This document shows positions 43,762 to 46,962 of a stretch of 64,000 nt of DNA, in pieces (positions within the stretch are counted from its first letter, which is position 1; the number at the start of each line of letters is the position of its first letter). Origin of the DNA: Leptospiraceae bacterium. Its GTDB lineage: Bacteria; Spirochaetota; Leptospiria; Turneriellales; Turneriellaceae. Below the pieces are notes generated by a model. That model worked only from the letters and a program-made list of their open reading frames with translations. It had not been told where the DNA came from and made no database searches. The position numbers and the translations under genes were made by a program. Location of the stretch: NCBI GenBank assembly GCA_020440825.1, contig JAGRNJ010000012.1:1-64000 (forward strand), read 5' to 3'.

Positions 43762-44307
43762 TCAATGTAAAAGCAGATTGAAACGCAGGCCAAGCCAGGT
43801 TGAATAACCTATTCCCTTATAGCGAATGTCCCCATCTTCATTGATGATAAAAATACTCGGAAATCCTGAAATCTGCCATTGTCGAGCAGTAGTCGAGTCT
43901 CCGTACAGTACCGGAATTCTGGTCTCATAATCCCTCATGAAATTTTTTATTTCATCCGGATCATCATAGTCCAGACCAATGAGTAACAGGTGAGTATTTG
44001 TAAATCCCGAACTGTTCTCGTTGTCAGCGAGACTGATAAAATTTGATATTGATAATTTGCAAACTGTACACCATGGTGCAAAGAAATACAAGGCTACTTT
44101 TTTGCCCCGATAGTCCTGTAGATCAAACGTCTTACCTGCATAGGTCTTCAAAATTAAAGGGGGGTGGGTTCTACCTGTCTCTGGCATTTTGCGGGTTTGC
44201 CAAATTTGAATTCCATAGAATAGAAATATTATGAACAAAAGCTGGCCCAGAATACGCAAAAAGCGAGCCAGGGAAATACGAGCAAGTATTTGCTTTAATC
44301 TTTGCAT
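43762..44307 (-). CDS. TlpA/ResA-like membrane-anchored thioredoxin
   Basis: 181 residues. An N-terminal anchor (FLRILGQLLFIIFLFYGIQIW) and a thioredoxin fold with active site 'FFAPWCTVCKLS' (CxxC) and the cis-Pro loop 'ISGFPSIFIIN'. Such proteins reduce apocytochrome c or other exported disulfides. The cytochrome c maturation genes ccmE and ccmF lie about 0.5 kb upstream on the same strand, with a small RNA gene and terminator between them. A CcmG-like role is plausible but inferred. Convergent with mltG, 20 bases between stops. Confidence 0.88.
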   Translation of the reverse strand: MQRLKQILARISLARFLRILGQLLFIIFLFYGIQIWQTRKMPETGRTHPPLILKTYAGKTFDLQDYRGKKVALYFFAPWCTVCKLSISNFISLADNENSSGFTNTHLLLIGLDYDDPDEIKNFMRDYETRIPVLYGDSTTARQWQISGFPSIFIINEDGDIRYKGIGYSTWLGLRFNLLLH

Positions 44308-44425
44308 TTAACTGAAGGGCAATAAAATCAGGATACAGCGGAAAGTTCTTTTATCAAAGATTATACTCTCATGTTCGAAATGGACAGGATTTCTAGATCG
44401 AAAAAGTTTTCAATGAACCCTCAAG

Positions 44426-44454
44426 TTGACTTATAGCAAAAACGATAATATAGT
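44426..44454 (+). promoter_or_regulatory. Near-consensus promoter of the candidate small RNA
   Basis: TTGACT (44426-44431), a 17-base spacer, and TATAGT (44449-44454). This is the best-matched promoter in the window. No protein-coding start follows that would escape the terminator 100 bases on. Confidence 0.75.
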
Positions 44455-44459
44455 AAGAG

Positions 44460-44595
44460 GCATTGGTTACTCCCGATATCAATGTTTTCGACAAAGAACA
44501 TCTTTTCCTCTTCAAGCTGTGGGAAACCAGGTTTGAGTGGTTTGAGAAACCAACTTAAAAAGGAGTCTAGAATTTTTTTAGACTCCTTTTTTTTT
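44460..44595 (+). ncRNA. Candidate structured small RNA (about 135 nt)
   Basis: Expected start is six to seven bases after TATAGT, and the end is the T run at 44587-44595. Foldable parts: CATTG/CAATG pair near 44461-44485, hairpin ATGTT...AACAT at about 44481-44500, hairpin TGGTTT-gag-AAACCA at about 44538-44552, and the terminator AGGAGTCTA/TAGACTCCT (44561-44587). An ATG at 44482 opens a frame that runs through the terminator and has no ribosome site, so it is not a good gene. I see no SRP, 6S, RNase P or tmRNA consensus. No function is assigned. Confidence 0.6.
44558..44595. terminator. Strong bidirectional terminator
   Basis: AGGAGTCTA (44561-44569) pairs with TAGACTCCT (44579-44587). 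An AAAA tract precedes it and nine Ts follow. It ends the small RNA on the plus strand and the zinc-ribbon gene, whose stop is inside the T tract, on the minus strand. Confidence 0.9.
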
Positions 44596-44821
44596 ACCAG
44601 CCTTTCTTATGCCAGAAATCTTCGGCAGAGAAAGAAAAATTGCACTTTTTACAGGTCATTTCACTTGCACTTGATCCGCATTTGGGACAGTATCTTTTTT
44701 TATAGAAATCCTGATCACGCTCAGACGGATCCATTTTCATTTTCATGATTTTCCCGTATTCACAAGTGCAGGCGAACTGTTTTTCTTTTCCGCAGTAAGG
44801 GCAATTCGGTAAGCGTCGCAT
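44594..44821 (-). CDS. Small zinc-ribbon protein
   Basis: 75 residues with four Cys pairs: 'CPYCGKEKQFACTC' and 'YCPKCGSSASEMTCKKC'. These form two zinc ribbons. The middle is Lys/Met-rich. No further domain, so nucleic-acid or protein binding is a guess. It follows ccmF by 29 bases and ends the long minus-strand operon at a strong terminator. Confidence 0.75.
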   Translation of the reverse strand: MRRLPNCPYCGKEKQFACTCEYGKIMKMKMDPSERDQDFYKKRYCPKCGSSASEMTCKKCNFSFSAEDFWHKKGW

Positions 44822-44850: not shown

Positions 44851-46962
44851 TCAAGAGTTTTGCGCTGCAACCGGGCGAACTGAGTAAGTACGCTTGCCCA
44901 GTTTCAGAGTTGCTCCCTCGCCAATAGGCAGCAGCAGCAACAGTGATGATATTACAAAAAAACCAAAACCAAACCACACCCAGAATACAAGAGGGTTCAC
45001 CCAAACCTGTACAATCATACGACCGGTTTCATCATCTGTACCGCCAATCTGGACATACAAATCGGCATAAGGGGTAGAAACAATGGATGGCTCAGACGTT
45101 GTCTGTGTGTCATCGTATCTGCCGCTCGATAAAGAAAACATAGGGTAAGTTCGAATTTCACTGGTATCCTGGCCCAGTAACTGATTGTTTTGCCAGAATC
45201 TCATGGTGGCCATTTTTGTGAGATATAACGGCACCCGGGCATATTCGGGAAACTGTTTATCTTCGAGTTTGGCCATTTCTATATAGTAACCTTCAAAATG
45301 CTGGCCCTCACCCTGGGCAAGGGTGAGTCTGGTTTCATTGCCAAATGATTTACCCGCAAAGCCGGTAAACAGAATGGCGAGAGATATATGCACCATATAA
45401 CCAAGATAGCGGCGTTTATTCTGAAATAAGGTCAGAATGAAAGCAATAAATGCAGGTTCACGGGTAACTGATTTACGAGCCCTGGCTGCCCGAATAAATT
45501 CTTCAACCACACCCACAATAACAAAACCAGCTAACGAGAAGGTTAGGCCTGCATAAAAATGAAAGTCATCCCAGGTTTTTGCCCCCATGCCAAACCGAGC
45601 GGCGGTATACGACAAGGCAATTACCAGAAATACCATGGAAGGCAGCAGAAAATTTTTCCTGAGTGTCGCAGCGCTTGTAGATCGCCAGGTTAGCAGAGGC
45701 CCTGCTCCCGTAAGGAACAGAATCAGAAGTCCCTGGGGAACAATAAATCTGTTGAACCAGATTGCCGAGAGTGCTACCTTTTGACCGGCGAAGAATTCAT
45801 GTATCGCGGGATACATAGTACCCCAGATTACTGTAAACAATACTGTCAGCAACAGTACATTGTTGAACAAAAAGCCTGCTTCTCGACTTAGAAAAGAGTG
45901 AAAAGGCCGGTCTGATTTCAACATCGGCAGGCGTTTGATAATTGCAAATCCACTGAAGACAATTGTCACCAGCATAAATGCCGCAAAAAATGGACCCAGG
46001 TTTGATGAGGCAAAGGCATGCACAGATTCGACAACTCCTGAGCGGGTTAAAAAAGTACCGAAAACAGTCATTACGAATGACAACGACACCAGAGTCATAT
46101 TCCAGATTTTCAACATACCCCTGCGTTCCTGCACGATAATAGAATGCAGAAAAGCAGTACCGGTTAGCCAGGGCATCAGAGAAGCATTTTCAACCGGATC
46201 CCATGCCCAATAGCCACCCCAGCCAAGCTCTTCATAAGCCCATTTACCACCCAACAGCATACCTGTGCCCAGAAAGAACCAGGAAAAAATAGTCCAGCGA
46301 CGTATATGTTTGGTCCATTCAAGGTCGAGCCGGCCGCTGATCAAGGCCGACATGGCGATTGCATACGGTACAGCGAACGAAACATAGCCAAAATACAGAA
46401 TAGGCGGATGGATGATCATGGCCCAGTGTTGCAGCAGCGGATTCAAACCCCGTCCGTCTGCGGGAGAAAAACTTTCACCACCAGCCGAGATCAAACGAAA
46501 CGGATCAGAAGTCGGGGAAAAATTGGTAATCGCTGAAAAAAATCCACTGATGACCATCAAAATGGCAATCATGCCGGGCACCAGCGCCGGTTCTTTATTC
46601 TTGAGACTGTGAATTGCAATAAACGAAAACATTGCCAGCAGAAAGTTCCACCAGAGCATTGAACCAGCCTGCCCGGCCCATAAACTCGTGAATCTGTAAA
46701 AAACCGGCAGAGTTAAATTTACATTTTCAGCGGCATACATCACCGACAAATCTGGTTTTACCAGAATGATCAGCAGCACAACGACTGCCGAAAACAATAT
46801 AATGAAATTTAAATTCAAGGCCTGTATGGCCAGTGCAAACCAGCCCGGCCCTTTCGGCTTAGATTGCCCAAAAGATTCGCGCAGGGCCATCCCCCCCGCA
46901 AAAGCTGCAAAGACTGCTATCGCCAGTGAAAATGCATTGAGCAGAGAACCGAGTTGAACCAT
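44851..46962 (-). CDS. ccmF: Cytochrome c-type biogenesis protein CcmF
   Basis: 703 residues with about 15 transmembrane helices. The WWD heme-handling motif is 'GWGGYWAWDPVENASLMPWL' (part). Conserved His in 'LLQHWAMIIHPPILYFGY' and 'TAFLHSIIVQERRG' are expected heme ligands. The C-terminal large periplasmic segment (ESFG/ETRL onward) and final helix match the family. It ligates heme to apocytochromes with CcmE-bound heme. The start overlaps the ccmE stop (TAATG). Confidence 0.95.
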   Translation of the reverse strand: MVQLGSLLNAFSLAIAVFAAFAGGMALRESFGQSKPKGPGWFALAIQALNLNFIILFSAVVVLLIILVKPDLSVMYAAENVNLTLPVFYRFTSLWAGQAGSMLWWNFLLAMFSFIAIHSLKNKEPALVPGMIAILMVISGFFSAITNFSPTSDPFRLISAGGESFSPADGRGLNPLLQHWAMIIHPPILYFGYVSFAVPYAIAMSALISGRLDLEWTKHIRRWTIFSWFFLGTGMLLGGKWAYEELGWGGYWAWDPVENASLMPWLTGTAFLHSIIVQERRGMLKIWNMTLVSLSFVMTVFGTFLTRSGVVESVHAFASSNLGPFFAAFMLVTIVFSGFAIIKRLPMLKSDRPFHSFLSREAGFLFNNVLLLTVLFTVIWGTMYPAIHEFFAGQKVALSAIWFNRFIVPQGLLILFLTGAGPLLTWRSTSAATLRKNFLLPSMVFLVIALSYTAARFGMGAKTWDDFHFYAGLTFSLAGFVIVGVVEEFIRAARARKSVTREPAFIAFILTLFQNKRRYLGYMVHISLAILFTGFAGKSFGNETRLTLAQGEGQHFEGYYIEMAKLEDKQFPEYARVPLYLTKMATMRFWQNNQLLGQDTSEIRTYPMFSLSSGRYDDTQTTSEPSIVSTPYADLYVQIGGTDDETGRMIVQVWVNPLVFWVWFGFGFFVISSLLLLLPIGEGATLKLGKRTYSVRPVAAQNS

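Follow-up and report, generated by a model that had tools for sequence, protein, structure and literature searches.

The window analysed here, a stretch of 64,000 nucleotides from an uncultivated spirochaete-like bacterium, contains an intergenic region between tlpA and a convergent zinc-ribbon gene of the ccm operon, which an initial annotation had proposed to encode a new regulatory RNA. The question raised by this locus is whether it really carries an RNA gene and, if so, of which kind and with what likely role. To our knowledge, few small RNAs have been described in spirochaetes other than Borrelia and Leptospira. Sequence comparison gives good support to the reading of positions 44460-44593 (+) as a conserved RNA. 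In our view these positions encode a stand-alone small RNA, non-coding and equipped with a promoter and a terminator of its own, which is present in two families of the order and most likely acts in trans through a CUCCC motif with the help of Hfq; we give this reading a probability of about 0.6.

Anatomy of the predicted RNA gene

The features of the locus are the following:

44423 to 44454, plus strand: promoter TTGACT-17-TATAGT, within a block AAGTTGA-N13-CGATA that recurs at 4/4 loci
44460 to 44593, plus strand: predicted small RNA of about 134 nt, with the 5' end placed at 44459-44461 from the -10 box and the 3' end in the T run
44457 to 44488, plus strand: 5' hairpin with CUCCC exposed in the apical loop, -8.6 kcal/mol with CUCCC kept in the loop
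44470 to 44474, plus strand: CUCCC, which lies in the apical loop in 4/4 genomes and is proposed as the seed for pairing
44496 to 44508, plus strand: GAACATCTTTTCC, a pyrimidine-rich single strand, with CATCTTYT retained in 4/4 genomes
44512 to 44552, plus strand: two middle hairpins, sequence not conserved
44557 to 44595, plus strand: intrinsic terminator with nine Ts, common to the convergent zinc-ribbon gene (from sequence and folding)
43762 to 44307, minus strand: AhpC/TSA-type thioredoxin-fold protein (tlpA), left neighbour
44594 to 44821, minus strand: 75-aa zinc-ribbon protein without a Pfam match; its gene is convergent with the RNA and is the neighbour that is conserved
44851 to 46962, minus strand: ccmF, upstream of the zinc-ribbon gene (Pfam CcmF_C and Cytochrom_C_asm; synteny)

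The initial annotation had described a TTGACT-17-TATAGT promoter, about 135 nt with several hairpins and no plausible gene, and a strong nine-T terminator serving also the convergent zinc-ribbon gene, and each of these elements was recovered. The -35-like TTGACT (44426-44431) is separated by a spacer of 17 bases from TATAGT (44449-44454), with 10/12 consensus matches; as a scan gave 4 promoter-like sites in 1.2 kb for 2.3 expected, the promoter alone is no better than chance. The terminator at 44557-44595 was absent from the output of a simple terminator scan, which found none, and is plain on folding, with a stem AAAAAGGAGTCTA...TAGACTCC(TTTTT) and, after it, a run of nine Ts (44587-44595). 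Within this T run falls the stop codon of the minus-strand zinc-ribbon gene (44594-44596), and the terminator can therefore serve both genes. About 100 nt lie between promoter and terminator, which gives, with the terminator, the predicted transcript length, and the RNA from 44455 onward folds at -42.6 kcal/mol compared with -29.8 +/- 3.7 kcal/mol for dinucleotide shuffles (z of -3.5, 0/200 as good).

An 88-aa ORF (44482-44748, plus strand) overlaps the RNA and extends past the terminator, where it runs antisense to the zinc-ribbon gene. A coding role was rejected because of this passage across the terminator and because reading by eye showed no frame in common with the relatives. The locus thus has its own promoter, an intrinsic terminator and no conserved ORF (coding being excluded by eye), as expected of a stand-alone small RNA gene.

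Comparison with known RNA families

Using 4227 Rfam models, including those for SRP, 6S, tmRNA and RNase P, we obtained no family at the gathering cut-off in the window or in loci L026, L146 and L133, in agreement with the initial annotation, which had been unable to match the sequence to any of these four RNAs. Matches below the cut-off were weak only, far below it, and fell mostly on the terminator hairpin. The candidate 6S RNA was set aside, as this RNA does not match the Rfam 6S model; the same model found no 6S RNA in the whole genome G000 (assembly 88% complete). The RNA of the window represents a new family within an already known kind of RNA. Two of the outcomes that the initial annotation had named as speaking against it, an Rfam match and a lack of conservation, were not seen, the RNA being kept in relatives.

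Relatives at the same intergenic place

Inspection of the sequence that follows the zinc-ribbon gene elsewhere in the order revealed diverged relatives, in the same position and encoded on the opposite strand to that gene, in G003 (locus L107), which belongs to the same family (f1) as the window, and in two members of family f4, G017 (L026, a stretch that is L145 of this genome) and G015 (L146), the latter looked at after the motif had already been seen in the other three loci. In each relative, CTCCC lies within a hairpin, CATCTTYT follows 15 to 25 bases later, and another hairpin closes the element. Upstream, all four loci have a block AAGTTKA-N13/14-CGAWA about equally far from the hairpin; the copy in the window takes in TTGACT and the first part of the -10 region. 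This block is a feature common to the orthologous loci, not a genome-wide motif. Its resemblance to a sigma-28 promoter (TAAAGTTT-N11-GCCGATAA) was considered and rejected, since the spacing does not fit and the order shows no enrichment of the pattern relative to its reversed control. The f4 members (L026, 7365-7503, minus strand; L146, 1357-1497, plus strand) also carry a second pyrimidine-rich sequence, CUCUCC, just before the terminator hairpin, which is absent from the f1 members.

The zinc-ribbon gene was found in eight genomes of the order, with the RNA beside it in four. Motif search and reading did not find the RNA at the zinc-ribbon genes of G005, G014 and G016, and in G002 the contig ends. 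The seven genomes of genus g5 examined have no detectable zinc-ribbon gene, and no copy of the RNA was found in the remaining genomes of the window's family. In G014 (L144), within 100 bases after the zinc-ribbon gene, a terminator-like hairpin is immediately preceded by a perfect hairpin, GGGTAC-CTCCT-GTACCC; the latter also has a CUCC loop, shows no clear sequence similarity to the RNA described here and is possibly part of a repeat element.

The zinc-ribbon gene adjoins ccmF in the window, G003 and G017, and in the window ccmE lies, with ccmF, upstream of it; the window ccmF is 56% identical to that of L026, a Spirochaetia metagenome assembly. In G015, ccmF was not found within the stretch examined around the zinc-ribbon gene. 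The 75-aa protein has several CxxC motifs and is conserved downstream of ccmF in the window, G003 and G017. The left neighbour varies: the window has tlpA and mltG, G003 a different gene and L026 a metal-ATPase-like gene (named by eye), and tlpA is therefore not part of the RNA locus: the RNA travels with the zinc-ribbon side, not with tlpA. The tie to nearby genes suggested by the initial annotation stands for the ccm/zinc-ribbon genes, as a neighbourhood only, and is not supported for tlpA, which is not the neighbour in other genomes.

This arrangement bears on a role mainly in cis, in which the convergent RNA and the common terminator would insulate the zinc-ribbon/ccm operon and read-through would yield antisense to znr-ccmF. 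Four genomes share this convergent orientation of RNA and zinc-ribbon gene and the terminator overlaps the znr stop codon, as such a role would suggest, but an antisense would need no conserved loop, no CAUCUUUU motif and no compensatory changes, and low read-through is expected of a nine-T terminator; we consider a cis role unlikely.

The 5' hairpin and its strand

With CUCCC held open, all four loci make a plus-strand apical hairpin, of -8.6, -7.7, -13.0 and -10.7 kcal/mol (window, G003, then the f4 members). For the window RNA, part of CUCCC is paired in the minimum-energy structure computed without constraint; the form with CUCCC in the loop corresponds to the centroid. Shuffles of the flanks were as good as the CUCCC-open hairpin in 13, 96, 0 and 5 of 2000 cases for the four loci, G003 being the weakest hairpin case, and the fold z across the four loci ranges from -3.5 to -7.4. 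The stems of G017 and G015 align gap-free, the loop being exactly CUCCC in both; of the 14 stem pairs of G017, counted by hand, three show a compensatory change in G015, three more a one-sided change with pairing retained, and two outer ones are broken. CUCCC can thus occupy the apical loop in all four loci, exposed and conserved as expected of a C-rich seed.

One exposed, conserved loop with variable flanks would suit a binding site, and the CUCCC hairpin might be a protein-binding or sponge element, that is, a decoy for an RNA-binding protein or for a G-rich small RNA. We know of no protein partner with a CUCCC-loop motif, and a decoy would be expected to carry more than a single copy per RNA. 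The presence in B. subtilis of a G-rich sponge of C-rich sRNAs (PMC8216469) provides a precedent, and we find such an element slightly less credible than a role in cis.

Read on the minus strand, the loop becomes GGGAG, which is near a ribosome-binding site or a CsrA site and which in the window (L211) precedes an ATG, as might be expected if the element were the 3' UTR of the zinc-ribbon operon or the 5' UTR of the next gene. Against this, the G-U pairs of the plus strand turn into A-C and the minus-strand fold is weaker at every locus (-1.9, -3.8, -9.2 and -4.0 kcal/mol, same order of loci), the short minus-strand ORF of the window (10 codons) is without equivalent by eye in the other loci, and the next gene differs between genomes. 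A minus-strand element is therefore improbable.

Conservation and searches for further copies

Local alignments of the regions without terminators were compared with 1000 dinucleotide shuffles. The window and G017 align with a score of 213 (124 +/- 15 shuffled; 0/1000 as high), G017 and G015 with 290 (0/1000), the window and G003 with 180 (1/1000) and the window and G015 with 173 (4/1000). Alignments of G003 with the f4 members are not significant alone (147 with G015, 68/1000; 135 with G017, 285/1000). The covariance model was built from the f4 pair only, the aligner used across f1 and f4 not anchoring CUCCC, and it did not recover the f1 members. As this model misses f1 and G003-f4 similarity is not significant, the homology between f1 and f4 rests on place, motifs and window-f4 similarity; judging from these alignments, G003 is tied in via the window and its place, not via direct similarity to the f4 members.

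Copies were searched for by DNA similarity (61 genomes), with the f4 covariance model (48 genomes) and with the motif and the G003 sequence (18 genomes). DNA similarity alone found no relative of the RNA, and the f4 model gave no convincing match in other families of this class. The motif CTCCC-N8-30-CATCTTYTC has 22 matches in 18 genomes, three of them at this place; the remaining 19 are unlike this RNA and lie nearly all inside long open frames. Extra copies outside the four loci were rejected, those examined being only terminator-like, low-complexity or in-gene matches. That the region is ordinary intergenic sequence, a promoter-like site and a bidirectional terminator with no functional RNA, is very improbable, for although a promoter-like site alone is expected by chance and many family members are without a found relative, conservation across two families, compensatory pairing and the fixed loop all argue against it.

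Proposed function and candidate targets

For the stand-alone, trans-acting small RNA that we favour, the working part would be the 5' hairpin showing CUCCC in its apical loop, followed by the U/C-rich single strand CAUCUUUU. In trans, the loop would pair with ribosome-binding sites of the GGGAG type in a restricted number of mRNAs, Hfq would help at the U-rich parts of the RNA, and the pairing would block translation or alter mRNA decay. The pairing between CUCCC and GGGAG is proposed because the exposed CUCCC, the U-rich strand and tail and a genome with Hfq make an RNA built like RoxS, FsrA and PmaR; the Hfq gene is above cut-off in 18/18 genomes of the order. Location, common motifs, structure, strand preference, absence from Rfam and the Hfq gene in the genome are directly established; we infer that the RNA is transcribed, where its 5' end lies, that it pairs in trans with targets and that it binds Hfq.

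In the window, an SD-like 4-mer lies ahead of the first ATG in 11/41 genes (4 in the in-gene control) and GGAG in 3, and few obvious mRNA targets are therefore present there; duplex-energy target prediction within the window was not informative. The proposal of a new regulatory RNA made in the initial annotation holds as regards a stand-alone RNA gene (position, promoter block, loop motif, compensatory pairing, two families), whereas its suggested regulation of envelope redox or cytochrome genes is not borne out, no GGGAG being present where ccmE, ccmF, the zinc-ribbon gene, tlpA and mltG start. Genome-wide, CGGGAGT-N3-10-ATG occurs 41 times compared with 27 for the reversed pattern, a mild enrichment that includes the RNA locus itself as one occurrence. 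Among 29 CGGGAGT sites read, few of the ATGs open a real gene; the convincing ones, by eye, include dnaN-like (L213) and fliQ-like (L224) ORFs, the leaders of which may be taken as leads, not as targets.

Strong GGGAG ribosome-binding sites seem uncommon in this genome. A more ambitious reading, in which this RNA would be the founding member of a small RNA family ancestral to an uncultivated spirochaete order and linked to the ccm/zinc-ribbon operon and CUCCC would control the minority of genes with GGGAG sites as a selective global switch, is in our opinion doubtful. With its clear anatomy and its relatives in two families, the RNA is usable for a covariance model and for testing, and if CUCCC is the pairing seed, the C-rich-loop regulation of Firmicutes and alphaproteobacteria would extend to a distant phylum.

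Comparison with known small RNAs

The small RNAs mapped in Leptospira interrogans are about 100 nt long and mostly without Rfam relatives (PMC5243855); compared by description, not sequence by sequence, the RNA of the window is like them in coming from a spirochaete, in its similar size and in having no Rfam family. In RoxS and FsrA, C-rich regions bind the mRNA targets, and one C-rich region of RoxS sits in a 5' stem-loop (PMC8216469). With the C-rich-region sRNAs of Firmicutes (RoxS/RsaE, FsrA, CsfG), this RNA has in common that it is a short stand-alone RNA with an exposed C-rich sequence, and it differs from them in having no Rfam match, in belonging to another phylum and in its single five-base CUCCC loop. 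PmaR of Agrobacterium tumefaciens has a stem ending in an accessible C-rich loop that is needed for target regulation (PMC6234868). PmaR uses no anti-SD region, acts mostly by positive regulation and belongs to another phylum, with no sequence relation known, but both RNAs present a stem capped by a C-rich loop.
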